A DNA stretch of 64,000 nt from Heterotrichella gracilis (Eukaryota; Sar; Xanthophyceae; Tribonematales; Xanthonemataceae), in assembly GCA_032358255.1 (NCBI GenBank), contig JAULBX010032035.1, positions 1 through 64,000 of the forward strand. The letters are read 5' to 3'. The notes beneath the pieces were generated by a model that saw only the letters and a program-made list of their open reading frames with translations, did no database searches and had not been told where the DNA came from. The position numbers were made by a program, and so were the translations under genes. Shown one piece after another: positions 6,925-43,177 of the stretch; the first letter of the stretch is position 1; the number at the start of each line of letters is the position of its first letter.

Positions 6925-8404
6925 GGGGTTGCCGGGAGGTCAATGAGGGAGCGGCAGGGCAGCATGGTGTGGTGCGGGAAGAGGAATAAGGTGGCGATGG
7001 GGCAGCAACGAATGTGTGGGGGGGGGTCAGCAATAGAGTGGGTGCCGGGCCAGGCACGAGTGAGGCAGCATTTTGTTGGGCAGAGCAGCAAGCGGGTTGC
7101 TGGGATGGCAATGCGCTGGTGCGGAAACCCTGGGTGGTTGAGAATCATGGTGGTGGCTACAGAGTGTGGTTGCGGTGCCTGGGAGGGTATGGGCTGTTGC
7201 CAGTCTGCAGGGAGAGCACCTGGGATCCCTCGCTAGATGTGGGTTGGGCTGGCCGCCGTGGTGCGCAGTGCCACATGGAGCTGTGCGCGCCACCTGCAGG
7301 CACACCTGTATAACACAGCTGGCTACCATCCTAGCTGTTGTACCTGCTATATGAACGCTTGCAAATACTGTAGTGCCATGCCCTTGTCATATACCTCGTA
7401 GCATTAGGAGACTCTCCGAGTTGTTTTGGCCATTATTGGGCTGCGCCAACTTTGGGATTGGCTGGCCATCTTACTCAGTTTGAGAGAATATTCATGCGCA
7501 GTTTCTAATATCTTTTTGTCCAAGTCCAGTCTGTAGTGTGTGGTTCGTGTGCGTGTTTGTGGGTTATCGTCCCTTTCCTTACCGTTATCTAGGAGTGAGC
7601 CAACCCCGTGTGCCTCTTTTTCTTTTCGAGAGTATCCTTGTGAACACTGTTTTACATCAGGACCTGCATCCCATGCCCTTCATGTACCATTATGGTATGA
7701 CACTCTAGGGTGTGCGTGGTCCCTAGTCCTTTAGGCATCATATGCTGAGATTCTCCAGACGTCTGTACAGTACTGGTGGCATATCGCACCGTGTAAGTGC
7801 ACACCCCTTGAAGGGTGCGATAGGTGTAGTGTAGTGCCCTTTTATTAGACCCTATGTAAACGTTTGTATGCCTAGCACTATCCCACAGCTCGTTTCAGTA
7901 ACAATTGCTTGAGGTGAACACCAGGATCAGGCATACAGCAAAATTTGATTTAATTTAATGGCATGCCAACGCATGCCACAAGCAGTCAAACAAATAAGGT
8001 GGGAAACCTGGTTGAACCACTGCAATGAAATCCAAAGGCTTTAAAGCAGGTTTGGGCGTCCACTTAAACGCCAAAACCCAAACCCTCACTTGTCTCAGGT
8101 CTCAGCAAGTCAACTCCCTCGTTTCAAGCACAGGTTTGGCCACACCCTAAGGGGCTGAGTCAGGTGGCGCCAAAACTGTCGGTTGTTCCAAGGCACCGGC
8201 AGTGCTTAGTCGGAAAGTTTTCTTCTACTTCTACGGTGTATGCAGCTGTGCTTTCTCGTTGTAAACTAGGACCCAACTGTTTGATGTGCAATGCCGTCCC
8301 TGCCCTCCGTTGCAAGGGCACATGCATGCATGCCCTAAAGCAATGTGCTAATGCATGCACATTGAACAACGTGCCCATCTCCACCCGCGCTTCATCGTGC
8401 CACC
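6925..8404. other. Spacer between CG-1 gene and RING-CH array
   Basis: About 1.5 kb without a convincing gene. The first part is probably the 3' untranslated region of the CG-1 gene. The segment near 7650-7770 is recognisably similar to 11860-11945, upstream of RING-CH copy 2, so the array's duplication unit includes part of this spacer. Confidence 0.55.
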
Positions 8405-11309
8405 ATAGCCCTCCAAACCTTCGCATCTAGCCATCACCTGAGTATTCAACGCCAGTTTGACCTGCATGTAGCCTGCCTCCCTCCCGAGGTGGTGGTACAA
8501 GTGCGGCATGCCCAGAGGGTGAGGCAGCTGCAAGGGCTGGACAGCCTGCTGCAACAGCCAGAGGAACACGCAGGCCATCTGGAGGGAAAGGAAGCTGTTT
8601 GTCGACACTGCTTCGCAGGTCAAGAAGATGGGGAGCTGCTGTCGCCCTGTGCCTGCAGCGGCACGCAGGTGAGTTTTAAAAGCGTATGGGCACTGCCAAT
8701 GCATCGGCATCCTGCACATCGCCCCTGACGCACCTAGGTGCACAAAACCGACATATTTGATTTAAATAGTCCTATGCCTGATTTGGGCACTGTTTCTTGG
8801 GTGTTGTAGCCAACCAGGCAGGGGCTGGTGCGTGTCACTGTGCAGTGTTTGCAGGTGGCCAGGGTACGTACCCAGTAGCTATAAGCATGGGTAGGTCCAG
8901 GTTTGTATCCCAAAGACACTGTAATCCAGAATTGCTGTTCTTTGCTGCAGGGGTATGTTCACAGGAGCTGCCTGGAGCAGTGGCGCGACATCAAGGCGGT
9001 GGAAGGGCGAGACGCTGACCGGCTGTGCCACTGCCACCACTGCTCTTGTTCGCTAAGCTTAATCCATGCGTGTATACATAGCTTCAGCCATGCACTTGCA
9101 TTGCCATTGCATTGCCCATACCCACTGAAAGCATGCCAGCACACTAGTGGGGGAAAACAGCTCACAGTGATCACTCGGTAGCCACCTGCTATGCCCTACG
9201 CTGCAGCTGTGACACCTGCCTCCAGCCGTATGGTCCCGGCCTCCAGCAGCGCGGCTTCTGTTGGTACTACACCAAATTGGTGCAGCTGCGCGGCTTCCCA
9301 CGAGGGCCCCTGTTTGTGGTGAGTAAGGGTGGGGTTGCTGGTGACGAGCTCGAGGGGCGGATCAGCGCAGATGGCGAGAAGTGTGCCTCTTCTGGTTAAG
9401 CATGCTGCATGGTGGGATCCCATCAATGCCCAGAAGCTACGCTCTCTGTGATATCACGGCTATATTGGAGGTACCTACTCTAATCACGGTCTCTCATCAA
9501 CAGTGCTTGACCCATTCAATTTCCTTTGGGAGTTAACGGGATGCTTTGGCTTGATGGTTACAGCTGATGGACGTGTGCCTGTGCTGCACAAGCGCCCTGC
9601 TGCTGGGCGAAGGGGAGGCAGCACCCAGCATGGGGGTGCTTTGGCAGCGGCTGGTGGCGTCGCTTCAGGTGCGGGCTAAGTTAGAAGGCGTCCTGGCAGG
9701 TGACGCACTGGCTGGGATAGTGCAATACAGCTGGGCAATATGCCAACAGGTCAAGCCCAGGGCTTAGCGCATGTTGTGGTGCTTCACTACCTAGCAGCCT
9801 AAGCCGCGCATGACGCTGCATACTGCTGACCTTAATTAATACAGGAAGCTGCCCATCATGACGTGGCACGGGTCAGAGCATGTAGAATGCCTGAATAATT
9901 GGTGGCGCCTGCCAACATGAATGATTGAAGCGATGTTATTCAGGTTAAGTATCAATTGGTCCTGAACCGTTGTCCATAAGCAATTGAGGAGGTGTGAACA
10001 ACTATTCTTGAATGATTAATGGTGTATGAATGTTTGATGATGTTTTAATAATAAATGATGTCTGCCGATATGGATGGATTGATGATTGTTGTCTCAATTG
10101 ATAAACTCCTGATAAGGTGTGTCAATGAAATTATTGAAAGAATCATTCGACAAAGACTGCTGATGATGTCTGAGTGGTGCAGGCGCATGCGCTGGCACAG
10201 CAGCCATCACAGGAGCTGGCAGGGTTGATGGCGGCGGTGGATGTGCTGCTGCACCCCTACCTTGGTGTCAACTTCAGCATGCTGTCCCTGGCGCTGGTGG
10301 GGGATGTGGCTGTGCAGTGGACCGGTGCGAGGTTCCTGCTGGGCATGTACAGGATGCACTGGCGCTGTTCAGGTGACCTAAGACGTAGTGAGGGCTTGGG
10401 ACTAAATTTGCATGTTGCTGGTGGAGGGGTGTGAACCCGGGAGGCAAGGGTTGCATATAGAATCCGCTGATCATCGATGGTAATTGCTGTTGACCACGGG
10501 CAGGAACATGTGTGTAGGGCCCAGCGTTGTCTTCAATGATCAGCCATCACTGCGTTCCATCCATGTTTGATCAGCCATGTTTGATCAGCGATGATCAGCC
10601 ATCCTGCAATTCTACGGCCCATCCCCCCAGGGGATTCATTGACTTTGGGCCCGGCTAGCTGCAACTGGTCACGTTTCATCTTGCAGAATCCCAGCAGTAC
10701 GTACCATGCACTGTGGTTGACACACAATGCGGATTCGATCACAGTATGTACCAGGACATACGGTTTAACCTATAACTTATGCCCAGTGGGTGATGAGTGC
10801 AGGGCATATTAATCCGTCCACTTCCTTTCGAGAAAAATACAACCTGCAGTGTCTAAAACGGAGATGCCACCGAAAAAAAATAACCGGGTAGCTTGTTGGG
10901 TCGCCATAAGCGTTCCTTGCACTTGAATGGAATGTGCTTGCACCCCACTCCCTCCACAGGCAACCCCACGTGACTCGCCCCACCCCCACACCCTCCCCTT
11001 CCTGCAGCGCACCGCTGGCTGCTGGCCGACGCCACCATCACAGCTGCCTACTGGTTCTCCTACTTCACGCGTGTCGTCATCTGGACCCTCCCCCTGCACC
11101 GCGCCATCAAGGTGTTGAACAGCGCCTCCCCGGAGATCATGACCGCAAGCCTGCTGTCGCTGCGCTCGCTGAGGCGCCTTGTTGACCGCCATGGGGGTGA
11201 CTTCTACAAAACGGGGCTGTGGCAGGTGGGGCAGCAGCTGGGCGTGATGCTGTACGCCAAGGTGCACGAGCGCCTGCTGGCACTTATTGTGGACCTGCTG
11301 AAGAGCTGA
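8405..11309 (+). CDS. RING-CH (RINGv) zinc-finger protein, array copy 1, damaged start
   Basis: Six exons: 8405-8668, 8951-9021, 9207-9318, 9564-9668, 10183-10372, 11008-11309; 347 residues to TGA. The RING-CH motif spans exons 1-3: CRHC, CAC, then VHRSC and CDTC, with the CLEQW tryptophan. This C4HC3 pattern is typical of MARCH-type E3 ubiquitin ligases, which are usually membrane proteins; the C-terminal 200 residues hold several hydrophobic stretches but no clear membrane pair. Intron phases (0,2,0,0,1) equal those of copies 2 and 3. Oddities: the codon aligned to their ATG is ATA (8405-8407) with a stop 40 bases upstream and no in-frame ATG in exon 1; the exon-2 donor is GC (9022-9023) instead of GT; exon 4 has lost 24 codons in frame, though its splice sites remain. 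All other frames are open. It may use a near-cognate start, gain a start from an upstream exon, or be a young pseudogene. Confidence 0.68.
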
Positions 11310-12588
11310 CCGCCAGTGTTGGCAGCTGGTGGTTGCAGCTGCTGGGGAGTGGGGTGCGCGATGCATGTCTAGGTGACACACTGTGCTGCGGGTGACACAG
11401 GGCGCCACACCTTCTACCACTCAAGCTGCTGCGCCTGCCACATGCATGCTGGCAAAATACCCTAGTGCAAGTTTCCTCTTGACAGTGGCATGCACCTCGT
11501 AGTGTGCATAACATTTTTTTGTGGGCTTATGTGGGCTGGGCTCATCTCCTGTGCAACTCGTGTAGATGCAGCCAAACTTGGCCAGTTACCATCACTTACC
11601 AGCAATCAGTAGTAGTGTATACGTTCTGTCAGCGCAATTATTCATGCATACATTTTGTCAGCGTTTCTCTTCCATGTCCAATCCGCAGTGCGGTCTATGT
11701 ATGCGTGTGTTTAAATATCTTCCCCTTTTTATGGGTGTCTACTGCAAGAACTCACCCTGGTGTGTGGCTAACCTTAGGCTAACCAAACTAGCCAGCATGT
11801 GCCTCAATTCCAAGAGTTTTGCAGCAGGGTATACCTATGTGTGTTATGAATTTTTGTATACCCAGTATTGCTATGATACACTAGTAGGCTAGAATTCGGG
11901 GTCCCTATGTCCTCCAGCATCAGATGCTGAGGTTCTCATGACAGCAGAAGAAAGGAAAAGCAGTCAAGAAATGGAACTCCCACAAGTTTCTGGTGATATA
12001 ACGTACTCGGGCGTTTATATATTTCCATATGGTGTATGTCAGGTGTGGTCGCCCTACTAATATACCTTATGTATCTGTTTTCGTGTGTTTTTAGGAATGT
12101 GTTTGTAGGTCTATCCATAGCCGCATCAGCAGCAAGTTCTCGAAAAAAAACATCGAGCCACTACATGCCGCTACATACCAATCAGCACTGCAAAGTCAAG
12201 CTGGCAAACCGGGCTGAGGGCGGCAGTGCATCCTCATGGGTTTAAGGAGGTCTTACAAGCTACCTGGGCCACAATGAGGAGCTTCAGTCCCATTGGCTAT
12301 GCTAGAACGCCCCAGAACCTGCACTTGCCCAAAAGGGCTCTGTGAACCCCACTGACTTGTCCCCACCTCAGTCGGTTCGCACATATCAAACTGGATAAAC
12401 CAGATAACAGCGATATATCAAGCAGGTTGTGAAGTTTGGACACTCTGCCTTTGTTAGTCGGGTACAGGAATAATTTACGGACGCGTCACGCCCCTCCCTG
12501 CGTTCCCTTGCAAGGGCATGTGTATGCATGCATTGGATGAGCCACTGAATGCCGATGCACCAACTTGCCTCCACTACATTGTGCCACC
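11310..12588. other. Spacer between RING-CH copies 1 and 2
   Basis: About 1.3 kb with no supported gene. Bases 11860-11945 resemble 7650-7770 upstream of copy 1, including GGTCCCTA and ATGCTGAG blocks in the same order. This is expected if copies 1 and 2 arose by tandem duplication of a unit including upstream sequence. Shared promoter elements may be here but none is recognised. Confidence 0.55.
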
Positions 12589-15393
12589 ATGGTCCTTCAC
12601 ACCTTCGCCTCGAGCCATGACTTGCCACGGCAGTTGCAGTTTGACCTGCACGTGGCCTGCCTCCCTCCCGAGGTGGTGTTGCAAGTGCGGCATGCGCAAT
12701 GCCTGAGGCAGCTGCAGGGGGTGGACAGCCTGCTGCAACAGCGGACAAAATTTGTAGGCCGGGCGGAGGAAGAGGGTGCAACCTGTCGACACTGCTTTGA
12801 AGGGAGCGAAGATGGGGAGCTGCTGTCGCCCTGTGCCTGCAGCGGCACGCAGGTGAATTGATGGGCACTCCCAATGCATCGGCATCCCTCCTTGTGGGCA
12901 CCCACATGGCATCGGCAAAGTTCACAAATATGCTCTGAGAGGTTCTTGAAGGCCTGCATCTATGTCTCTTTGGTCAAAACCAGTTTCCTGGTGTGTTCCA
13001 AGCAAGACAGGCACATAAGGTTACTTCGTGTGAAGCACAAGGGGGGGAGGGCTGGAGGTGGCCTGTGTACCCCAGTCGCATGCATGGGGCCAGATTTGCA
13101 TCTCAACGGACACACGGGGTTAGAAGTTTATTCAGAACTGATTTTCTGGTGCAGGGTTATGTGCACAGGAGCTGCCTGGAGCAGTGGCGCGACATCAAGG
13201 CGGTGGAGGGGCGAGACGCTGACAGGTAGACCGGCACTTGCAGTGCAAAAATGGCCTTGCATGGTGAACCCACGGGTGCATGTACAGCCACACCCATGCA
13301 CTTGCTGTCCTGCCATGCCACGGCGCATACCCATGGTATACTGCACCACCCCACTATGGGGAAACCAGCCCTCAACCCCGCTGCAGTGAGTAACCTGCTG
13401 TGCCCTGTGCTGCAGGTGTGACACCTGCCTCCAACCATACGGCCCCGGTCTCCAGCAGCGCGGCTTCTGTTGGTACTACACCAAGGTGGTGCAGCTGCTG
13501 GGATTTCCCAGAGGCCCCCTGTTTGTGGTGAGTGGGTGGGGGGTGGGGGGGGGGTGGGGGGGTCCTGGTGGGGAGGGGGGTGGCACAGCGCAGCAAGGGT
13601 GTGTTACTGACCATAACACGCTGCATGGTGTGAGACACGAATGTTCCCCAGTACAGTCACGGTGGTGGTGGGCTAGGATTTAGGGTTTAGGGTTTCTAAA
13701 CACCCTATAGGGTGTGAGACACGAAGGTTACCCTGGTGGTGGGTTAGGAAGTCAGGGGTACCGCACCTCCCATTTCTTTCTGTGTAATTTTATCATTCCT
13801 GCTTGTACATTTGGCCGATGACGGCATGCTTGGCATTGGTTGCAGTTGCTGGATGTGTGCCTGTGCTGCGCAAGCACCCTGCTGCTGGGTGGGGTGGCCT
13901 GGGCAGAGACGACGGTCAAGCTGAAGATTGCAAGGGAGGTGCTGCAGATGGCACTGTGCAGGCCAGGGGAGGTGACACCCAGCATATGGGTGCTTTGGCA
14001 GCGGCTGGTGGTGTCGCTTCAGGTGCGGACCAATAGGGTCCCTGCAGTACCGTGCATGGGACAGGCAGCCTGCGTTCAGGCAGCGAAGCGGGGCACATGC
14101 GCCCCATGCCGCGCTACCGTACATGTACACCTTGTGGCCGCAACCTGTTGCCCAAAACCATTTATTGGTACCACTGCATTGCATTACCAAGCAAGGTGCA
14201 CCCTCAGATAAAATGGCGTGCACACCACAGATTAATGAATGTATTGGATGTCTACATTGATTGGTGATATTGCCTGTACGTGACCCTGCACAGTCACGTC
14301 ATGGTGATCATTCCAGAATACCCTTTCATTGATGAGGTCTCAAGGATCAGATGCGTGATGATTGATGATGGTTAAATGGTTGCTGTCCCTGCTGGGTGCA
14401 GGTGCATGCACTGGCACAGCAACCTTCACAAGAGCTGGCGGGGCTGATGGCGGTGGTAGATGTGCTGCTGCACCCAGGCATCGGAATCAACTTCCTGATG
14501 CTGTCCACAGCGCTGCTGGGGGATGCGACGGTACAGTGGGCGGGTGTGAGGCAGCTGCTTGGGAGGCCCTTCTGGCATTGTTCAGGTGAGCTGCACGGCA
14601 TGTTGCTTGAAGTGTTTAACCCCGGACGAGGTTTGCATGTGGCCTCTAGCGGCAACAACCAGCGCTGTCTCCTTTTATGAGCCATCACTGCATGCGTTGC
14701 ATTCATATATGCAATCTGCCCAAAATTGTGGATGATCACGGTTCATCTGACAGAATTACAGCAGTGCCATGCACTGGGGTTGATTCGTGATGCATAAGTG
14801 TGTACAGCTGTATAGCTACAGTCTGTGGGCGCCTGCCATGATCGTTTGATTTCGTTGACCCCACTTCGTTCCAAATCATGCGAATACAATTTGAATAAGC
14901 ATTTGCAGATGCCATTGAGTTGTCACCTGTGGATTCGTGGCGCGTTGCATTGCCACTGGGGCCAACTGCAACATAGGAGACCATGCCTGCACCCCACTCT
15001 CCACACCGACCGCTGCCTCCTTCCTCACACGCACACTCACCCATACCATACCACATACCGCCAACACTGCCCTGCCTCTCCTGTGCAGCTCACCACTGGC
15101 TGTTGTTCAAAGTCGCCCGCCAAATTGCCAGGCTGGTCTTCTCTTGCTCGCACTTCGCCATCTGGACCCTCCCCTTCCGCTTCACCATCAAGGTCATGAA
15201 CAACACGTCCCCACATCTGATACGCTACACCCCCATCTGGTCGCTGCAATCCATGCGGGGCTTTGCTCCGCGCCTCCTCAACCATGTGTGGGAAGCGGCG
15301 CTGTGGCAGGTGGGGCAGCATGTGGGCGTGGTGCTGTTCCTGACTGTGCATGCGCGGGTGCTGGAAATGACTGCCCTGCTGCTAGCCAGCTGA
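12589..15393 (+). CDS. RING-CH (RINGv) zinc-finger protein, array copy 2
   Basis: Six exons: 12589-12852, 13155-13225, 13416-13527, 13846-14022, 14402-14585, 15089-15393; 370 residues. The ATG sits in GCCACCATGG, the same context as copy 3. The RING-CH zinc ligands are all present: CRHC and CAC in exon 1, VHRSC in exon 2, CDTC at the start of exon 3. Seven residues separate the CxC from the histidine, as in the RINGv family. Exon 4 carries a further Cys-rich patch (CLCCAS) conserved across the array. The C-terminal exons have amphipathic and hydrophobic segments of unknown fold. By family it should be an E3 ubiquitin ligase, probably at a membrane, but the substrate is unknown. All splice sites are GT-AG and every exon is in frame, so this copy looks functional. 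Confidence 0.82.
13679..13695 (+). repeat. Interstitial telomere-type repeat (TTTAGGG)
   Basis: Just over two perfect TTTAGGG units lie inside intron 3 of RING-CH copy 2, followed by a partial inverted copy (CTAAACACCCTA). Confidence 0.85.
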
Positions 15394-16090
15394 CCACGTT
15401 GGCTGCTGGTAGGTACTCGACGGGGTACCTGTAAAACCCACGTGTCTTTGTGGTTTGTGCACCACGGTGCGGCAGCTGCCGGGACAGCTCAACATGATAT
15501 TGAATGGACAGCGGCCATATTGGACTCCAAGCCATTACGCATGCCCTTTGTGTTCTCTGACAATCTTGCAGAAAGTTTTGCGTTGTTTGTGTGTTGAAAA
15601 CCCATATGCATGCCCACAGGTGGGACATTCTTACAAATTTCATATTCAATTTTTGGTTACAAGTGCACCCTGCTCGCCACCTGGTTTCAGCGGCTGTGGC
15701 CTTGGCGGGTAATACAACATTAATGTTTGCTGTGGCCGTTCGCGTTCTTTCTTTTTTCCTTACCTCCCCTTATCTGCATAAATCGCTGTAGGCAAATTGC
15801 ATTTTTCGTTTTTCCTGATCTGAGCTCAGAGCTCAACCTGACCTGACCTGACAGCTGAGGAGACTCGAGGGTCTGCAGCTCTAGAACCCCACCTTGCGAC
15901 GGTTGGGGTTCGCCCACTTAAATAACGACAAGGTCGTGCAAAGACCGTGGTCTTCCACTGTTTTGGAAGATATCTGTGTGCGCCGTTGAAAAAGGGTCGT
16001 TTGGTGCGCCAGCGGGTACCAATTTGCAATGCATGCATGAAGATGCATGCAAAAACACATGCGCACTAACCCGCGTTTCATCGTGCCACC
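15394..16090. other. Spacer between RING-CH copies 2 and 3
   Basis: About 700 bases without a gene. The last 25 bases before the ATG of copy 3 match the region before the ATA of copy 1 almost exactly (CATCGTGCCACC), so the duplicated unit reaches upstream of the coding start. GCATGC palindromes occur at 16028-16050. Confidence 0.6.
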
Positions 16091-18608
16091 ATGGCCCTCC
16101 ACACCTTCGCCTCGAGTCACCACCTGCATATCAAACGCCAGTTTGATCAGTGTGTGGCCAGCATCGCCCCCGAGGTGGTGATCCAAGTACGGCATGGCCA
16201 GCGGTTGAGGCAGCTGCAGGGGGTGGACAGCTTGCTGCACCAGCCAGACAGTGAAGAGCAGCTGGAAGAGGTGGAAGATGGTGCAGCCTGTCGACACTGC
16301 TATGCAGGGATTGAAGAGGGAGAGCTGCTGTCCCCCTGTGCCTGCAGCGGCACGCAAGTGAGTTGGGGTGTGCCAACCCTGGAATAGCACAGTCCGCCTT
16401 GAGTGTCTGTGTATGCCCATTATTTACCTAGATTTTGGGTACAAATCTGGTGTCTTGTCTTGTAGCGAGCGGATCAAGCATGGCTGATTAACTCTAGATG
16501 GGTTTAGGGAGCACGGGAGGTGCACAGCTGTGATGGAAAGGCCACCGTGTGTACCGCAGGAGCAGAATGTGCAGCAATACAAGCAATACTGCAGCATAGT
16601 TGTATCATTTATTACTTTGTGCTGCTGCAGAAATATGTGCACAGGAGCTGCCTGGAAGAGTGGCGCGACATCAAGGCCATGCAAGGACGCGGCGCTGACA
16701 GGTATGCATCCAGTCACTGTGCGATGCACTGTGAAACAGCGGGTGTATGTACGGCTGCACCCAAAACCTGCTGAGGCCACCGTGGCCATCCACGCGGCAG
16801 TAGGTGTGACTGCCGCGTGTATGCAATCCCAGTGCCAAAAGTAGCCTGTTGTGCGCTTTGTCGCAGGTGCGACACATGCCTGCAGCCCTATGGCACTGGA
16901 GCCTTACGGCGTGGTTTCTGGTGGGACTACATCAAGACTGTGCAGACACTGGGCTTACTTAAGGGCTTTATGTTTGTGGTGCGTTTGCGTGGGTGGGGAG
17001 GGGGGATATGGGAGGGGGTGAACACAGTTGCGACATGGTGAGCCAGGTTTGATGTCACGTGTGTACAGACCATAGTATGCACACCCAAGTGGCATCCTGT
17101 TGGCAAATAGGCGTATCATGCTATACTGCATATTCTAGATATGCCTGGCCAATACGGCAACGGCTTGGGAATGGTCGCAGGTGTTGGATGGGTGCCTATG
17201 CTGCGCAAGCACTCTGCTGCTGGGTCATGTGGTCTGCGTCGGGAAAATGGTGGCACAAAGGCATATGGGGGAGGTGCTGCAAGCTGCCGTGTGCAAGGCA
17301 GGCGAGCCGGCGCCCAGGATGCGTGTGCTTTGGCAGCGGTTGGTGGCATCGCTTCAGGTACGACCAGTACTGGTGCCCGGACTAGCATGGCCACCCAAGG
17401 TGAACCTATGTGAGCCAGCTGCCTTGTTGAGGTGATTCCACACAGCTGGAGCAAGGCAGTGGGCAACAAATAGTTGGCAACAATAAGTTGATTCAGGCAG
17501 CACAGCCTTATAATGCACGTACGCTGGAAACTAACAAGGACATGTCCATTACGGATCAGAGCACTTTGCAATCGTACAATAATAACATGTACCATAATAA
17601 CATGTTGTAACAACAGTTGTTTGATGTTTTTTGCTGGGTGCAGAGGAACGCACTTGCACAGCAGCCTTCACAAGAGCTGGCAGGCGTAATGGCGGTGGTG
17701 AATGCAGTGCTGCACTTGTGCATACCAACCACTTTTCTGGTGCTGCCCTTGGCCCTGCTGTGGAATGTAATCATGGAGATGACAGTAATGATTGGGCTGC
17801 TTGGCCCGGCGGGCTTGAGGCACTGGCGATGTTCAGGTGAGACGTGTAGCCCAGCTTATTATGTGGTCTCAGGCTGCGTTGCATCTTTGTATCAGGTTCG
17901 TTATAGAAACCAAAGCACTGATCAGCCTTCATCTGACCACCGGCGTGCATGGTGCATATTTCAACCTTGGTTTTATACCTTGCAAAATGTCTCAATTGGG
18001 CCCAATAGAACTCTGTAACTTCTGATGCCATGCAGTGGAACAGTTTGCATGCATGCAGTGGCAGATTTCTCCCTAATATTGCGCTACGCTTGGATCCAAT
18101 AGTTTTTGTAAGTACTTACACGAGATTCAATCTCTATTCATAATTATTCTGCATATGCAAGCTAGAGTCTAGACCGTGGAACCAATGACTTACTGCAGTC
18201 AACCACTGAGACAGATCTCCAACTTCATCTTGAGTGATACATGCGAGCAACTCGGGGGTTCTGTCCCAGCCAGCCTCTGACCTGCGCCTCCCCTCTCCTG
18301 CAGTGCACCATCGGCTGCTGTGGACAGCTGCCCGCGCCATCACCCAATTGAACAACCTCTTCCTGCATGCCGCCACACTCACCCTCTCCTTTCAAATTAC
18401 CATCAAGGTCATGAACCATTTATCCACAGTGGTGGCGCAAAATGACCTGTTGCTGCAGCCCCTGTGGCCCCTTGCTGCCATTGTGTTACGCCAGTTTCCC
18501 TGGAGCCAGGTGGTGGAATGGCAGGTGGAGCACAAGCTGGGCATGATGGTGTATGTGGTGGTGCAAGAACCTCTGCTGGCAATATTAGATGCTGGTTTTC
18601 TGAACTGA
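16091..18608 (+). CDS. RING-CH (RINGv) zinc-finger protein, array copy 3
   Basis: Six exons: 16091-16357, 16631-16701, 16867-16978, 17181-17357, 17644-17836, 18304-18608; 374 residues. The start is GCCACCATGG, as in copy 2. The RING-CH motif is complete: CRHC, CAC, VHRSC, CDTC, with CLEEW between the His-Cys pair and the last Cys pair. Exon 1 ends CAA before GTGAGT, where copies 1 and 2 have CAG. Exons 2, 3 and 4 have exactly the lengths of copy 2 (71, 112, 177), while the C-terminal exons have diverged most. Exon 5 is markedly hydrophobic (FLVLPLALLW), so a membrane segment is possible here. Predicted role: E3 ubiquitin ligase of the MARCH type, target unknown. No lesion was found. Confidence 0.82.
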
Positions 18609-19242
18609 ACATTGCAGTTGAGCACTTGAAACCTGATCAGCAGAATACTATGTGAGACTTTTGCAGTATGTGAGACTTGTGCAGTATGTGACAGATGCTG
18701 GGTTAGATGATGAGGCCTGCAGCATCTGTACTGGCTACTCACGTGGGCGCACGTGGCCACATGGTGTCAGCTGCCTGGCAACGCAGCCTACGCAGGCAGC
18801 AGAGTGGGGCATGATTGTCAACGATTGACACTACTGAGAGGGCAACCATATGTCAAGCCCGCCTGAGCCTCCTTTAGATACCGTAGATATGTAGATATTA
18901 TCCTCCATGTATATTTCTACTGTGTAAATGGGGATGTAAGTGCCGATTTGTGCGTCTTTGCCACTTGGAGTGGGGTGCCACCTACTAGGCTCTATCTGTA
19001 ACCCTAGGGCCCTACTGCGCGACGCTAGGGTTTCAATAAACACCATTCAAACATCCGATGCGGACGGTTGGGTTCGCTCTCTCGATACCCATGATTCGTA
19101 CGTACACTAGAGTAGGATTCTACTCTTATGTATCAATATTATACGGTTCCTGCTGCCGTGGTCGGTTGTAATCGAGACGCAACTGGTGAACGCTGTGTGC
19201 CCTGTACATGTACGAGCCCCATCCTCGCCTCTTTGTGCCAAC
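18609..19242. other. Spacer between RING-CH copy 3 and pseudogene copy 4
   Basis: About 630 bases, no gene. It contains an imperfect 18-bp tandem repeat (two full units and part of a third) at 18649-18694, 40 bases after the stop of copy 3, in its likely 3' untranslated region. Confidence 0.6.
18649..18694 (+). repeat. 18-bp tandem repeat, 2.5 units
   Basis: Units 18649-18666 and 18667-18684 differ at one base and a third partial unit runs to 18694. It lies just downstream of RING-CH copy 3. Confidence 0.8.
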
Positions 19243-21828
19243 ATGGCCCTCCACACCTTCGCCGCAAGCCACCACCTGCAACTTCAACACCCTTTTCACT
19301 TTTATATGTCCAGCCTCCAGCCCGAGGTGGTGGTACAAGTGCGGCATGCCCACCGGCTGCGGTAGCTGCATGGGGTAGACAGCCTGTTGACAACTTTGCA
19401 ACAAGACCCGCAAGGGCTGCAGCTTAATGAGGAGGAGGACGAGCATCGCTGTCGATATTGCTTATCAGGAGTCGAGGAGGGAAAACTAATAGCATCCTGT
19501 GCTTGCAGCGGCACGCAAGTGAGTTGGGACAGTAGACCCTTCCTTCCCGTGCCGGCATGCCGGGCATTCCTGTGGTCTCGGACGTCAGCACGGAATGGGA
19601 TAGGCCAAGCAAGCGGCTACAACCTGCTGGTATCCATTTAATATATTGGCCAAGCTAGTCTCCTGACATTCACCACCGAAAGGTGAAGGGTGGCCTGTGC
19701 ATGGCATGCAGACATGTAGAGGTGTGTGCTGGTGTTGATGCAGGGGAACGCGCACACGAGCTGGCTGGAACAGTGGCCTGCCACCAAAGCCGCCGAAGGG
19801 GTCAACGCTGACAGGTATGCCCCTGGTCACAGGGCAAACATTGCACTTTTGCGGTGAACCCATGCACCTGCCCATGACATTGCACATTGTGCACCATTTA
19901 TTGTACTCGCCTATGAAAGGGGGATATTTTGACGAGTGATATCTGTATACTTCAGTTTCTGTGAATTATATTTACCCATGGGCTGGGTATTTGCCAAATA
20001 CCAAGAGTCTTCAATTGCGCCTCCCCAAAGTACCCAGTGTGCCTCCCCACACTCGGGCCGATGCACGGTGCCAAATATCCTTACTCTGGGAGTCAACTCC
20101 ATCCAATTAAATGCGACCATTTATCACAGCTGTGCGCACATCGTATGTGAGAGGACCTATGGCGCTGTGGTACAGGTGTGATACGTGTCTGGAGCCGTAT
20201 GATTTAAATAACGCGCCAATGGACTGCAGTTTGTGGTGGAAGATCTACAAGAAGACGCTGGGCTTTGCTGTTTGTGGTGAGTGTGGGTTGTATGGGTGGC
20301 GTGGTGGAGTTGACAGGATATGACAATGTCATATCCTGCAGGTTCCATCATGGTATGCATACATGGCGGTGAGACAAAGGAAAATTTAACACATGGTCCC
20401 CGTAACTGACCATCGCATGCGCATTCAATGGTGGAGGAGTTGATGAATTGGCTATCACCAGGTTCGGATGGCCATCACCGCTGTGGCACAGCAATTGGCT
20501 AGATTGTATACCAAGACTGTTCCCGGGACCCCACACTCACGGCAGCTGTTTTTCAACGTTGCAGGGCTTGGATTGGTCCCTGTGCTGCGCTACCACCTTG
20601 GGTGCTGCTGCCTGGGCCGGATTAATGAAGACGATCAAGGTTGCAAGGACGGGGCTACATTTAGAGGAGGAATTCTGGCATAGGGTGCTTCAGCAGCCAC
20701 TGCGGCGGCGGGTGGCGCCTTCCCAGGTGTGTGCACCATGGTCATCAAGGTGGCAGTGCCGTGCCAATGTCCTGTGGATGCGAGCTGCCCAGCTAGCATG
20801 CTTGCAATAAACTCTGCCCTAGCGTTAGCTAATGATGTGAGGCAGTTATGTGCATGCAACACGCTGCGTGCCTATCAAGGGAAGGGTATTATACTGCCAC
20901 ACAGGGTTGCCATGTATGCATTGCTTCAAGCCTGATCAGTCAAGACAGACAGCCTGGCAAAGTAGCCATTGCAATAAGTCTCATTCATTGGCTTTTAGCA
21001 CTTGGCAAAATCATTAAAGAACATAAGTTTAATATAATGTTTCTGTTTTCCCCAGTACTGCCCTCAGCAGGCGTTTCAGGAGCCTTCAATGGAGCAGGCT
21101 GCCCAAGGCTTGATGGCGGCGTTGGCGGTACTCACATTCAATAAATTGTTACGCCACTTAAAGCACTGGAACCACTAGTGTACAGGGCGCTGCTGAAGTC
21201 TGCAGCCGTGCAAAGGGTCTCTGTGTGACAGCTGCTAGGGAGGACAGACTGGCAGTGTTCAGGTACGGTGCAGGCCCTGGGTGGGGCTTGTTGTCGCCGA
21301 GTTCGGAAGTGCCAGACCAGCTTGAAAAACTTAAGCTTAAATAAAAATATTGTTTTATCTTAAAATCCGTACTACAAGTCACTTTTAGGAGGAGGATATG
21401 TATTCAATTAAAATTATGATATGGAGTATAAATGTTCAAAGCATGCTTGGATTGATACATTCACCCCCACCCACTTACCTGCACTTCCCTTCACCCTGCA
21501 GCTGCGCACCGCCATGGCTGCAGAGGACCTGCAAAATTGCCCAGATGAGCAGCATGCTGTTTGCATCGCTGGATGCCAAAATACTCAACCTCCCCCGGTA
21601 ACCATCATCAGCGCAGCCCCAGTGCTGATGAACTTTCACCTCTGTGCAAAGCCCCAAGTGCGCTTGGGTACCATGATGTTCACTAGCAGCTTGTAATGGC
21701 CAGTTGCCATTGCATGGTTGCAGCTGGCGCTGTTCCTCGTTGAGCGTCTGCTGGGCATGACATGGCATGCGATGGCGTCCAAGCTGGTGTTGCGCATGCG
21801 CATAGTGCAGAGGCTCCTGTCCAAATAA
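19243..21828 (+). pseudogene. RING-CH array copy 4, pseudogene
   Basis: This copy keeps the six-exon plan but is broken. Exon remnants lie at 19243-19518, 19744-19814, 20176-20276, 20565-20726, near 21057-21260 and near 21503-21828. It begins ATGGCCCTCCACACC like copy 3. A TAG at 19363-19365 replaces a CAG codon conserved in copies 1-3 and stops translation after 40 residues. In exon 2 the zinc-binding HRSC has become HTSW, removing a ligand. Exon 3 is 101 bases instead of 112 and shifts the frame. Exon 5 contains further stops. Exon 1, 2 and 4 boundaries are still recognisable, and the final exon ends at a TAA. The amount of drift suggests this is the oldest inactive member of the array. Confidence 0.85.
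20314..20338. repeat. 25-bp near-perfect palindrome in pseudogene intron
   Basis: Two 12-base arms (20314-20325 and 20327-20338) are exact reverse complements around a single A. It lies just after the degenerate third exon of the copy 4 pseudogene, so it is probably without function there. Confidence 0.85.
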
Positions 21829-22011
21829 CTACTTTTTGTATACACGATTAATGATGCATGCATTGGTCGATTGCAGTCACAATATGATCAGGCTACTAGC
21901 ATAGTATGGCATATAAGAGATGGGACTGACAGCATTGTAAAATCACATTGTACAATGGGCACATCATCAGCATGTGAGCCCTGGCGCCCACCCCCCTGAC
22001 AGTTGGACTGC

Positions 22012-24508
22012 TCACATCAGCCAATCCTCCATGTCCAGCTCACATGGCATGCCAGGTGGCAGCCCCATGCTGTCAGCCGCCACGCCAGTGCCCCTGCCAC
22101 CCCCACACACGCCGGCAACCCTCGCCCCATCATGGTGTGCCTCTGGGTAACCTGCACCTGGCCACGGGTCCTCACCTGCAGCGTGGAGCGCAATTCCGGC
22201 GGCGCTGCCACGCTGCCTGAAAGGGTGTCCTCCCCATATTACCATGCTCCCCTTGTTCACAAGCTCACACCTCCCCTCAAGGGAGGGGTGGTAGCGCGCA
22301 ATGTGGGCACGGGCACTGGCCTCACTCTGCAGCCATCCACCCAGCAAAAGTTGAGGGGCCTGACTTTTGAGAACCAAAATAGCTCAATTGACATAGTTAA
22401 TTGAATCAATCAACGGCACGAGTTTGGCCTGCCGTGAGTCATACACACAGGAACTCAACCCAGTGCAAGGACTGACCAGTATCGTGTCGCACTCAAAGGT
22501 CAGGCACAGCGTCCCCAACAGGTGGCCCGCCAGCCCCTTCCTCCCCAGCTCCTCCTCCTCCTCTGGCATAAGGGAGGGGGGTGCGCACAGCCGCGCAGCG
22601 TCACCATTGGTGCGCTCAACACATGCGTGGGCGGTGCGGCCGGTACTATTGGCAGGGAGGTGCAGGCGATGAGGAGAAGGGTGGTGCACTGTCATTGGCG
22701 TCCATGCATGTGCTGATTCTGATTATGCTCGAGTATGTGTATGATGCCCACGCCACGTGCAGCCGGCAGTCGAGTTGGTGAGCTGCTAGTAAAAGATGAT
22801 TGCGAATTAAGTGACAGCATGTGGAATGTTCTACAGGGGTCTGCACATGGCATGGTATGTGGCAAGGGTCCTTTGACGCATCGTCCTGAAGAAGGACTTC
22901 CAGCGATATTGTGCTGCTGGGTACACAGATGCATGTACTCCGTGCGCACTTGCATGGCCACAGTGCTCACCTTGGGTCCAGCAGCTCCAAGTCCATGAGG
23001 TGCCACAGCGGGTCGCGCGTGCAGTCGCGGTAGGGAAGGATGTCACGCGCGCACACTCCCAGGTGGATACCGCGACATGGGTCAAAGAAGTGGCCTGGGT
23101 GGGGTGGGGGAAAAATGCATGCAAAAGGAGCATGGCAGTAGTAGTATCACAGTGGAGCATGCTCGGGGCCTACTCGACGACTACAAACAATAGGCAGAGA
23201 CTGAGAAGGGCACATGGGGCCACATGGGTGCAGGGCACATGGGTGCGGGGGTTGCAAGGAGCCCCAGATGTGCAAGGGCGCGGTGCCGGTGGGGCAGTTT
23301 GTGTCTAACCATTGCGCGAGACATGGACATGCACTAGCTGCAACATGTGCCACACTCCCTACACTTCTCCATCCCTTACCCTGTCACCAGCCCACACCAG
23401 TGTGCCACCACCACCACCACCTCACCTCTGTCCCCACCTGATATCTCGCCCGTGTCTGTCACTGCAAGATACGCCACACCCTCCAACCGTGTGCCAGGGC
23501 CATCTCCAGGGGCACCAGCAGGGCTCACCCCCTCGTCATCGCCATTTAACCCATCATGGGCACCCTCATGCCCCTCCAGCCAATCCCCAGCGGGCGTCGA
23601 GGGTGGTGCCACAAGGGGGGTGTCACTTGTGGGTTGGGAGGGAGCAGCTGGTGGTGCTGCCCTCCCCTTCCTGCCGCTGCGCCACTCCCCTGGCGGTGGA
23701 ATGCTGGTATGGGTGGTGGTGCTGGCCACGGCAGGCGTATCGCCTGCAGCAGGGGTGCCAGGCTAACACCCAGGACCAACACAATAGAAGTGACCTCCCC
23801 TCCCGCCCACCCTGGATGGGCACCAGTGCCTCCATTGCATGAGTGTGCAGGTGCGTGCACTGCTCCTCAGCAACAGCCACCTTGTACGGGTTGGGCAGTG
23901 ATTGCCCCCTACAGGTGTGCAGACCCTGAACTGCCTACCTGATGCAGTCCGTTCGCTGGTGCCAAGCGGGGCATCCCCGGGTGGGGCTGGCAGTTGAGTA
24001 GCTCCACCTTGCGGCTCCAGTGGCACCCGCACCTCCACGTACACCTGGTCGGGTCCTGCAGGGGAGGCGCACCATAACGCACCTCAAGCCCGGCCAACCA
24101 ATGACCCACTGCCAGCGCTTGTATGGTGTTTAGGGTTTTGCAGTTAGGGTCCAGGACTGCATCCCGCAGTGTGGCACAAGCAACCTGGGTGTCACGCCAC
24201 TGCACAGCAACCCCTCGGGCTCATACACCCACCGTTGATCCCTCCAGTTCGTGCATGGCCCCAGCGGTGCTGTCCTGGAGTGCCAGGAGCACATTGGCAA
24301 AACATGCAACCTTAAGTGTCGGGGTCTAGCTAGGGTGCACTATAATAACCCTACAGCGTCGTAGGCACCCGGCGGGTACCCTGGCAGTACCCGAAATTCG
24401 GGATACTACGGCCTCACCTTGCTGCCTATCCTGCTGGGGTGTGCGTGCGTGCCAGGGTGAGACAGAGAACTCCACACTCTTGGCCGCAGATGGCCTGGGG
24501 CGAGGCAT
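22012..24508 (-). CDS. Unidentified multi-exon protein with C2-like segment, 5' half unresolved
   Basis: Four 3' exons join in frame on the minus strand: 23743-23438, 23094-22971, 22645-22477 and 22326-22012, ending MEDWLM and TGA. They read an acidic, Gly/Pro-rich linker, then GIHLGVCARDILPY, LMDLELLDP and LGTLCLTFECD. This arrangement resembles a C2 domain, which often binds lipid, though I cannot name the family. Upstream, coding-like segments include an ATG at 24508 (MPRPRPSAAK), a stretch near 24110-24190 with NTIQALAVGHWLAGLEVRY, and YVEVRVPLEP near 24030. These cannot be joined with ordinary introns: frame changes need gaps of only about 17-30 bases. Possible reasons are very short introns, a decaying 5' half, or assembly errors. 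The stop lies 184 bases from the end of the RING-CH pseudogene, in convergent orientation. The existence of the 3' half is reasonably sure; start and function are not. Confidence 0.5.
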
Positions 24509-36227: not shown

Positions 36228-39200
36228 ATGGCGGTGCGGCGGGTGCTGGCCACCTGGGGAAACCCCGACTGGGGTCGCCTGGGGCACGGTGATGGGGGTG
36301 CTGCCATGGTGCCGCGTGTGTGTCGGGCGCTGCTTGATATGGATGTGGAGGGGGTGGCGACAGGGGGGGCGCACACGCTGGTGGTCACGGGTAGGTGGAC
36401 AGGCGGGGCGTGGGGGTGATGGGGTTGTAGCAAGGTGGTGAGTGCATTTGCGTGGCTGAGTAGTGTGACCCGCATGCGCTTGTAGGTGCATGGTGGAGGG
36501 TGGTGGTATGCTAGCATGGCAGTTGGACGGGCACATCTCGGCACAGTGCACACACTCATGTTCACCATTCAAACCCCCATGCACCTGCTGTTCAACCCCA
36601 CCCCCCTTGCACCCACCTTACCCCCACTCCCCCACACTGCCCTCACCACTCCCAGGCTGCGGGCGGGTATTCTCCATGGGCCTCAACGACTGGGGGCAGC
36701 TGGGGCACTCGCAGGGGGACACACATGTGGCGGTGAGGGGAGGGGAGGGAACGGGGCAGATTACGTGCAAGGATGTTGGGTCGATACAGGCTGAGGGACG
36801 CATGCTGCACTTGAGCGTACCCCAGCCATGTCTGCTGCTGCTGCCCACCCTCACTTGGCCTCCTTAGGTTTGCAGGGTATAATGCATAGAAATTGCATGA
36901 TATTTGCAGGGTGTAATGCATAGAAATATCATGATATTTGCAAGGTCTAATGCATAGAAGTTTCATGATATTTGCCAAGCCAGCTGCATTATTCCGGCTG
37001 TAGTGCCAGAATGCACGCCATCATTCATCCCGAGTAGCCACAGGCCAGTCATCGCCCCTTCATGGGAGGCCCAGTGTTCAGCTGCTGGCTAGGGTTTTGT
37101 TTTCTCATAAAACCCTACTCGCCCGCAGGTTCCCCAGGAGGTTTCCCTGCCCGAGCCAGTTGTGTGTGTAGCTGCGGGCAACTACACCAGCTTTGCGGTA
37201 GGGGCAGGAGGGGGGGTGTACGCATGGGGGCGGAATGAGGAGGGGCAGCTAGGGCTGGGGAAGAAAGGGGGCAATTCTGCTGGGGAGCCAAGGGAGGTGA
37301 AGGCCCTCAAGGGTAAGTTGGGGCGCATTACACCCATAGACAAAATGATGCAATTGAACCGGCAGCCAGTGATGATTCATCAGCTTTGATGCATGATGTA
37401 TGTGCTCTGGTCAGAACAAGCAAGACTGGTATTCAGCAAAATGTGCATCTGCAGTACATGTCTTTGACCCTGCTCCTTATCCACTTCCTCCCCTGCACAG
37501 GCGCAGGCATCTCCTCCCTTGCTGCTGGTTCAGACCACAGCCTGGCCCTCAGCCATCAAGGGGAGGTGTTTAGCTGGGGCACTGGGGAGGGGGGCAGGCT
37601 GGGACACGGCAGGGGGGAGGGCATACTGGCCAGATTGATGCGACGAGGAGGGGAGGATGCCACCCCCCGCCTGGTGCGGGCGCTGGCGGGGGTGGAGGTG
37701 GTGGGGGTGGCAGCGGGGCAGCTTCATTCAGGTAAGGAACAGACAAAACCCCGATGTGCACCACATGCTAACTGGGTATGATGCTGGGCGCAAATTGGCG
37801 GCACACCCCACCCACCCCTCTGCACACACCCTCTGCTCCTCCTCAATGTTGATATCATGATCCCTGGCCCCATCCCCTTTACCTCCATGCACCTCTCCCC
37901 CTTTGCAGGCGCAGTGACGTCGGACGGCTTTGCCCTGGTTTGGGGTTCAGGCCGCTTCTGGCAGCTGGGTCTGGGGCATGAGCAGGATGTGGAGACACCC
38001 ACACAGGTGCAGGCAGGGGCAGGATAGGGAGGGTGTGCGGGGATGGGAGGGGAGGGAGGGTGTGCCCATACGGATGTGAATCTGGGTGCCATATAGGGGC
38101 AATGGATGCACGGCATAATGGCATTAAATTTTGTGGCAGTGGGTGCCGCACATACCCGGGTATGCCACATGAGGTACCAGTATATGTGCGGGTTGGGGGG
38201 GGGGGATCGATCAATAGGACGTGGCCGACCATGCGTGTAAACACGGATGCCTTCTTTGACTGCCAAGGAGCCACACACATTGGCATGGGACTCTCACTGT
38301 ACACTCTACTCAATACACCCCCAGCCCCTGCCAGGTGCCTGGGCTGCCTTGCATGCCTTTGCTTGCCCCAATGGGAATCGCACACCCTGGAACCTAAACT
38401 CTTACCCCCCTGCTCTGCCAGGTGCCCGGGCTGCACAGTGTGTGCGCGCTCGCCCTAGGGGGGCTGCACACCCTTGCGCTCAAGCATGGTGGGGAGGTCA
38501 TGGCCTGGGGATCAAATCACGGCATATTGGGGATGGGCACGCAGGACCCAGGGGCTATCCGGGCCCCCACGCGCATCCCAGGGCTGTTTTGTCAACAGGT
38601 AATGCTGCAGATTCGATTGGGATCCCAACCAAGGATACCATGCCCCCACACATTGCTTTCAGGAAGGACCACTGCATTGCACCACTGCACTGCACGCACC
38701 CAGGATATCACACCCCACACCCCCGCAATCCGCGTATGGTGGCAGGATGCAGTTTTGAAACAGTCACAACATATGTAGTGGCATACCATCATCGCACATC
38801 AGGCCAGCTGCAGGTAGGGCACAAGCCCCACGCCCTGATAACCCATTTTGTACTTCCTCCCTTCCAGGTGTCAGCTGGTTGGCGCCACAGCCTGGCTGTC
38901 GGCGGTGGTGATGCCCTGGCGTGGGGGTGGGGGGGATCAAGCGGCACCCCCTCACTGTGGGAGCCGCAGCAGTCAGGTGGGGGGCAGCTGGGGCAAGGGG
39001 ACGAGTGGGACTACCCTCGACCAACTAAGGTGAGTAAGGGGCTGAATGGCTGGGGACGGGGGTTGTCGCTGTGCATGCTGTACGCGGTGAGCTGGGCCAG
39101 AGATGACTCCCTGGGATTAGGTAGGCACAGCAAGACCCACAGGTGCAATTTGAAAAGCATACTGCCATGCATGGTCCACAGCAGTGTAACTACTATGTAG

Positions 39201-41181: not shown

Positions 41182-43177
41182 ATGGGACCCCAACCAGGCA
41201 GCCTGACAACTGATTGGTTTGCCTCACAACGGCACCGCAAAAAGGAGGTAAGCACAACACACCGAGTCTCAGTGGGGATGGTTGTATCACTGTGGCTGCA
41301 TCGTGATACCTGTTCCCCACCAAGAGTGTGTGGTTGACCCCAGCATATCAGCACCCACTGGCTGGCGCAGCTGTACATTGCAAACCCTTGAAGGGTTTCA
41401 AGGGGTTTTGTGGGGGTTTGCAGGACGTGGTGTTTGCTGTGGAGGAGGGCAAATTCTGCATATATGGCGTGCTGGACGGCCACAACGGAGTGGTGGCAGC
41501 GGAGTTTGTGAAAGAGTACCTTCCCAAAGTCTTCCTGGCAAGCTTTGGGGACACAAATGGTGTGGGGGGGGACAAACATGGTGTTCACTTTACCGCCTGC
41601 AGAATGCTTGCAGTTGTCGTTTCAGTGCCACAGCACAGATGACGGAGTTGTCCAGCTCAGTCATAGGAAACTCCCTTTGTTGGAAATGCCACAGCACCCA
41701 CTTGCTTGTGCTTGCTCGTTCACTGACCCGCTGTCTCCCCAGCCGTGTCCTGCACCCCTCCCCGGCTCACCCAGCTGCTCCCCCTGCAGGCCCGCACAGC
41801 CGGGAGGTTGTGGCACGCGCCCTGGCCACCTCCTTTGTGCGCGTCAACGAGAGCTTCTGCGTGGACCACTTTAAAGCTGGTGCGTGGCAAAACATAAAAA
41901 ATAAAATAAAATAAAATGAATTTCTATAATGTTGTATTTACTTTTTTTGCCACGCCATGGGGATGCTGATACTGTGGCCCACATCCACAGCCTGCTGCTG
42001 CCATTCGACCATGGGTTGAGGTGCATTGCAGGCATACGCAACCCCACATCCATCCCTGCCCTCACTGTTTTCCTCCCCTTCAAGTCAATCCGCTGCGCGC
42101 GCTCCCTTCCCCCAGGCACCACCGCCACGGTTGCCGTGCTGCACCAGGACGTGCTGACAGTGGCCAATGTGGGCGACAGCAAGGCGGTGCTGGACACGTG
42201 GGCAGAGTCAATAGAGGTGCGGCGGTGCAAAAGGAGTTGTTGCTCTGGGTCTTCAGCGTGTGTTGCTTGTCATGTAGTATTGCGTGAAGTTGCATCGCGC
42301 AGGCGTGCGCAACCTGGCGCACTTCGTGACATTTTGCATCCCCATCTTCCCCAAGGGCAACAACTTTCCCAGCAGCTGCTTCGATCTCCATGCACACCCC
42401 TCCACCCATGCCGCCTCACCCTGACTCCCACCACCCGCCCCACAGGTCACTGCAGACCACCGCATCGGCCCCGACCCCGATGAGGTGCAGCGCCTCAGCC
42501 AGGCGGGGGCGCTGGTGGCCAAGGTGTGCCCCATCAACGACGGGCCTGCGGCGCCAGGCGGGGTTGGCGTGGGTGTCATGCGGGTGTGGCCTGGCGGCCT
42601 GGCCATGTCGCGCGCCATCGGCGACGTGGACTGTGGCGCGCACATCATCCCGCACCCACACATCACGCAGGTGGCGGTGCGGGGGCGCTGCCGTCTCATG
42701 ATGGCCAGCGACGGGGTGTGGGACGGCGTGGCGGGCATGCGCTACGTGGTTGGCAGCCTACGGCGGGGCGACGTGCGCGAGGCGGCGACGCGGTGCGTGC
42801 GACTGGGCCAGACCAACTCGTGCGGGCAGCTGAAGGACGACTGCTCGGTGCTGCTGGTGGACATCACGCCACAGGGAGAGCCCATGTCACCGCCTCCCTC
42901 TGCGGCGCAAAAGCAGGGCGGGGGTGGGGGGCTGTTTGCGTGCATGTGCGTCGGCCCCGCGGCTACGCTGGATGATGCGGAGCGCAGCGCCCTGGTGCTG
43001 GATTCCTTTGACAGCTACAAGCGGTACGGGGGCGGCATCAGCGGGGCGGCGGGGGAGTACTATTCGCACGACAGCGCGCGCGATGGCACGACCTATGTGA
43101 AGGCCATGCAGGCCAAAGCAGCTGCAGTGGGGGGCCAGGGAATGGGGGCACCTGTGGCCACTGTGCTGGAGCACTAG
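41182..43177 (+). CDS. PP2C-type serine/threonine protein phosphatase
   Basis: Five exons: 41182-41247, 41424-41559, 41790-41879, 42116-42216, 42446-43177; 374 residues. The PP2C (PPM) motifs occur in order: RHRKKED, YGVLDGHNG, GTTATVAVL, VANVGDSKAVLD, TADHR, GGLAMSRAIGD, MASDGVWD and KDDCSVLLVDI. The metal-binding aspartates of DGH, SDG and DD are present, so it should be an active Mg/Mn-dependent phosphatase. The WPGGL and SRAIGD spacing and the extension after the phosphatase core resemble, from memory, a plant clade that includes Arabidopsis At1g47380. The C-terminal 70 residues are Gly-rich with a possible FACMC cysteine cluster. There is no signal peptide, so a cytosolic or nuclear place is likely. 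The first exon is only 22 codons and its ATG is the only one in frame there. Confidence 0.87.

Follow-up and report, generated by a model that had tools for sequence, protein, structure and literature searches.

We describe a tandem array of four RING-CH (Pfam RINGv) genes in a 64,000-nucleotide stretch of the Heterotrichella gracilis genome (the window, C900:1-64000, from a 68.5-Mb assembly of 903 contigs), and consider it likely that the array is a birth-and-death cluster of E3 ubiquitin ligase genes whose catalytic part is conserved and whose tail evolves fast. Turnover would have left two copies intact (copies 2 and 3), one without a start codon (copy 1) and one dead (copy 4). This is an ordinary small gene family in duplication and decay, and its clustering is in itself unremarkable because RING genes in tandem have been described in tomato: a survey there assigns 60 RING genes, counted over all RING types, to 50 tandem events, while regarding segmental duplication as the chief route (PMC6801689). 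A limited-depth search of the literature on RING-CH/RINGv in algae or in tandem found no comparable array.

Architecture and state of the four copies

Gene models were built from splice sites on the DNA of 7500-24500. They bear out the four tandem copies, with their start positions, that a sequence-only reading of the window had proposed: the genes lie head to tail on the same strand, starting at 8405, 12589, 16091 and 19243. Copy 1 (8405..11309, +) has exons at 8405-8668, 8951-9021, 9207-9318, 9564-9668, 10183-10372 and 11008-11309, giving 347 open codons. Copy 2 (12589..15393, +; exons 12589-12852, 13155-13225, 13416-13527, 13846-14022, 14402-14585 and 15089-15393) is intact and encodes 370 aa, and copy 3 (16091..18608, +; exons 16091-16357, 16631-16701, 16867-16978, 17181-17357, 17644-17836 and 18304-18608) is likewise intact, with 374 aa. 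Copy 4 (19243..21828, +) carries four kinds of damage. The whole proteins of copies 1-3 are 53-67% identical, well above chance, and an origin by tandem duplication is supported.

Each of copies 1-3 has six exons, of which exon 2 measures 71 nt and exon 3 measures 112 nt; the intron phases are 0,2,0,0,1. The sequence-only reading had extended this architecture to all four genes; the exon number, sizes and phases hold for copies 1-3, and in copy 4, whose exon 3 measures 101 nt, the phases are lost. The splice models agree with its further claim that RINGv is split at the same two points in copies 1-3: one intron follows SGTQ (phase 0; the motif is present in all three) and the other falls within the codon preceding the last CxxC (phase 2). 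Copy 1 has an exon 4 of 105 nt, 72 nt less than the 177 nt of copies 2 and 3, and the last exons of copies 1, 2 and 3 measure 302, 305 and 305 nt, respectively. A short telomere-like TTTAGGG repeat, two units plus part, lies in intron 3 of copy 2 (13679-13695).

At position 8405, copy 1 reads ATA, whereas an ATG stands in comparable sequence surroundings in copies 2-4. Its frame is open upstream of 8405 as far as a TGA at 8363, with no in-frame ATG, and its first in-frame Met lies downstream of RINGv. Copy 1 has lost its start codon and is probably decaying. Its intron 2 also has a GC donor (at 9022), which by itself is tolerable. In copy 4, exon 1 contains an in-frame TAG where copies 1-3 have CAG, Trp replaces a zinc-ligand Cys in exon 2, the 101 nt of exon 3 lie between splice sites matching those of the other copies and do not keep the frame, and exon 5 contains a stop (TGA) within the part that aligns with copy 2. 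Further stops in the joined copy 4 translation arise because the frame is lost, and were not counted separately. For copy 4 we considered an alternative genetic code in which TAG encodes Gln, and rejected it in view of the 101-nt exon 3, the lost ligand and the TGA of exon 5. Copy 4 is a pseudogene, and only copies 2 and 3 look intact.

The RINGv domain and the rest of the protein

The assignment of these genes to the RING-CH type, also made in the sequence-only reading, is well founded for copies 1-3. They score 41.4, 41.7 and 39.6 bits, respectively, against Pfam RINGv (cut-off 21.6), and by pattern match the domain spans residues 66-116 in copies 1 and 2 and 67-117 in copy 3, with the C4HC3 zinc ligands complete and all eight in order. 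Copy 4 fails the C4HC3 pattern, with Trp at one ligand place. A single ligand pattern with ranges fits all of copies 1-3 and a further gene on contig C132, described below. By the definition of the type, as judged from these motifs, copies 1-3 are RING-CH genes and their products are predicted E3 ubiquitin ligases.

The domain resembles that of plants as characterized in the tomato survey, where RING-v has Cys as ligand 4 and His as ligand 5, separated by seven residues, and usually an Arg following ligand 1 and a Trp fourth after ligand 6 (PMC6801689). Copies 1-3 share the two ligands and their spacing, the Arg (CR) and the Trp four places past ligand 6 (HRSCLEQW / HRSCLEEW). They differ at the second place after ligand 7, where Asp is usual, though not defining, in tomato RING-v domains (PMC6801689), whereas copies 1-3 carry CDTC, with Asp first and Thr second. 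Also unlike plant RING-v proteins, they have no Pfam match in their N-terminal 60 residues or in the part after RINGv.

Copy 2 matches four listed sequences in the PDB, all confined to RINGv (residues 61-119): two DOA10 chains (best 2m6m, E 1.4e-8), 2d8s, a 'cellular modulator of immune recognition' (E 4.7e-6), and viral ORF K3 (E 0.048). DOA10 / MARCH6 (TEB4) is thus the best solved-structure match. However, the resemblance ends with RINGv and the array proteins have about 370 residues, compared with 1319 in the DOA10 chain. We rejected membership of the DOA10 / MARCH6 group because the intact proteins are 370-374 aa long and the copy 2 match is limited to residues 61-119. Like animal MARCH proteins, those of the array have a RING-CH domain near the N-terminus and, after it, a C-terminal part that is hydrophobic. 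However, most MARCH proteins have two transmembrane spans (PMC4897099), whereas spans in the array proteins are candidates only, and here too the match to the solved relative is confined to RINGv.

Membrane spans in the array proteins are plausible from the hydrophobicity of the part after RINGv, whose mean Kyte-Doolittle value is 0.41-0.65 and whose best 19-residue stretches reach 2.0-2.2 in copies 1-3. Weighing against such spans, the best stretch was reached by 349, 427 and 569 of 1000 same-residue shuffles for copies 1, 2 and 3, respectively. Because the stretches are no stronger than those of the shuffles, the case is one of composition alone. In the mechanism that we propose, RINGv would bind a ubiquitin-loaded E2 and transfer ubiquitin to the target. 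The hydrophobic C-terminal part may contact the target and serve as a membrane anchor, and loose constraint on this tail would let the copies drift apart or decay.

Divergence and selection among copies 1-3

Whole-gene synonymous divergence (dS, NG86) is 0.44 between copies 1 and 2, 0.69 between copies 1 and 3, and 0.71 between copies 2 and 3. Copies 1 and 2 also align at 70% over the 5' flank, exons 1-3 and introns 1-2 (8294-9334 vs 12492-13541). This alignment of flank and introns, together with the lowest dS, makes them the youngest pair. Their introns are 46-62% identical, compared with 36-42% for one shuffled intron each, with intron 4 the weakest (46% vs 42%). The introns of the pairs 1-3 and 2-3 are 44-61% identical (33-49% when shuffled) and hold little signal, because shuffled sequence equals or beats the real identity in two of the ten, namely introns 2 and 5 in the pair 1-3.

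The ratio of nonsynonymous to synonymous divergence (dN/dS) was estimated by NG86 with a codon bootstrap (498-500 usable resamplings) for the three pairs of copies 1-3, copy 4 being left out. For RINGv the ratio is 0.17-0.20, with upper limits of 0.34-0.47 (copies 2-3, 0.17, 0.07-0.41). It is 0.39-0.44 for the N-terminal 60 residues, 0.33-0.54 for residues 121-270, and 1.24 (0.79-2.03), 1.17 (0.74-1.84) and 0.71 (0.41-1.14) for the last exon, where all intervals span 1. RINGv is shown to be under purifying selection and the last exon to change in a near-neutral manner. Because dN/dS rises along the gene and the last-exon proteins of copies 1-3 are just 28-38% identical, the C-terminal region is the least conserved part. 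The long C-terminal region singled out in the sequence-only reading is indeed unclassified, in that Pfam does not match it, and this divergence speaks against a conserved domain. Two caveats apply to these ratios: for the last exon, YN00 yields lower values of about 0.76 for copies 1-2 and 0.91 for copies 1-3, the two pairs that it covers, and the whole selection comparison takes in just three sequences.

The high NG86 ratios of the last exon beside a RINGv conserved in the same genes, and the retention of its frame and near-constant length, could also point to diversifying selection, with a target-recognition part pushed to change in an arms race or towards new substrates. We regard this as improbable, because all three bootstrap intervals include 1, the two YN00 ratios are lower, exon 6 of copies 1-2 diverged no faster than the introns (Jukes-Cantor (JC) distance 0.50 vs 0.54-0.95), and relaxed constraint suffices without selection. 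It is just as doubtful that these are ligases in which a fixed catalytic part is joined to an in-frame last exon free to change, so that duplicates rapidly gain different targets or membrane partners. Slightly less remote, though still unlikely, is a cluster that is dead or dying as a whole, its copies 2 and 3 being likewise unexpressed and simply unbroken so far. Such a fate would fit the dead copy 4, the missing start of copy 1, the roughly neutral rate of change in the last exon and the copying of a copy 3 fragment to contig C725 (below). However, copies 2 and 3 have both retained complete frames and the splice sites of their six exons despite a dS of about 0.7, and the RINGv ratio of this pair is low. 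We favor the birth-and-death cluster.

Relatives elsewhere in the genome

The assembly was searched with the proteins of copies 2 and 3 and with the DNA of copy 2, the results being read exon by exon and the counts being lower bounds. Within these bounds, no further full copy was found in the 68.5 Mb; the searches recovered the array and, beyond RINGv, one fragment on C725. RINGv-only matches were obtained on C576 (with copies 2 and 3) and on C132 (with copy 3 only). A RINGv profile search of the assembly listed five loci, which include neither the array nor C132, an absence that would be explained by a RINGv split over exons in a search that reads each exon separately; the strongest unsplit RINGv of the genome is that of C576 (59.5 bits). 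The classical RING (PF13639) has at least 50 matches among those listed in the assembly and was not used. Among the six other RINGv loci examined, C132 alone has an intron at the first RINGv position of the array, C156 apparently has one about 8 nt earlier and in phase 1, as read by eye, and four (C576, C640, C296 and C221) are continuous across this place.

The C132 gene (C132:53264-55801; L045:4265-6802) was modeled by hand with exons of 432, 68, 178, 123, 178 and 140 nt. The model resembles the array genes in its six exons, in the phases 0,2,0,0,1, in the place of its first RINGv intron and in its length (372 aa vs 370-374), and agreement of five phases by chance has a probability of 1 in 243 if phases are independent and equally likely. 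Its RINGv scores 43.1 bits, Pfam matches nothing else in the protein, and the gene is present in one copy as far as searched. In two-sequence BLASTP its RINGv is 51-57% identical to those of the array over 37-39 aa (E 2.7e-11 to 5.3e-10). Searched against the genome, its best non-self matches are array copies 2, 3 and 4 (E 2.9e-4, 0.0034 and 0.05), closely followed by C156 (0.086). The six-exon architecture as a defining mark of the array is weakened by this model, which has the same exon number and phases. Several observations count against the kinship of C132 with the array. Its exon borders were set by eye, and not blind, on the basis of open frames and GT-AG sites; its second RINGv intron is displaced by four codons with respect to the last CxxC; BLASTP detects no similarity between C132 and the array beyond RINGv; the copy 3 search favors C576 over C132 (E 0.0061 vs 0.0099); and the copy 2 search lists C576 and not C132, tblastn on the fetched loci also favoring C576. 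Exon-wise searching favors C576, which has most of its RINGv in a single exon. Since only RINGv is similar and C576 scores better, the kinship of C132 with the array rests more on gene structure than on sequence.

The C725 fragment (L039:772-1007, 236 bp) is 98.7% identical by blastn to 17102..17337 (+) of the window, a stretch of copy 3 that covers the last part of intron 3 and the greater part of exon 4, and is a recent transfer of a gene piece. Near it, L039:208-564 is the end of a multi-copy element: when L039:1-1800 was searched and 40 of 457 candidates were scored, 39 of the 43 listed matches fell in 208-564, with 37 of them ending at 561-564. No repeats were found among the same candidates in the bases between the element and the fragment (565-771).

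Two short peptide patterns fitted 40 stretches in viral contigs and 24 in prokaryote genome contigs. None was confirmed as a relative in either set, and a virus-related origin of the RING-CH genes was rejected on this result. Pfam gave two matches among 20 open frames elsewhere in the window, a partial PP2C phosphatase domain at 42485-43174 (+; 29.9 bits, cut-off 20.3) and a weak RCC1-like match in a 317-aa open frame at 38247-39197 (+; 27.2 bits, far under the cut-off of 150). Elsewhere in the assembly, chlorophyll-binding proteins gave 43 exon-wise matches, a CP26-like exon having PDB chains 7pi0 (Dunaliella), 9is4 and 6kac (Chlamydomonas) as its closest, and a search for the RuBisCO large subunit found none.

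In summary, the array is one more modest case, here in an alga, of RING-CH ligase genes that duplicate in tandem and decay, and it changes no general view. A correct C132 model would suggest a gene structure older than the array.

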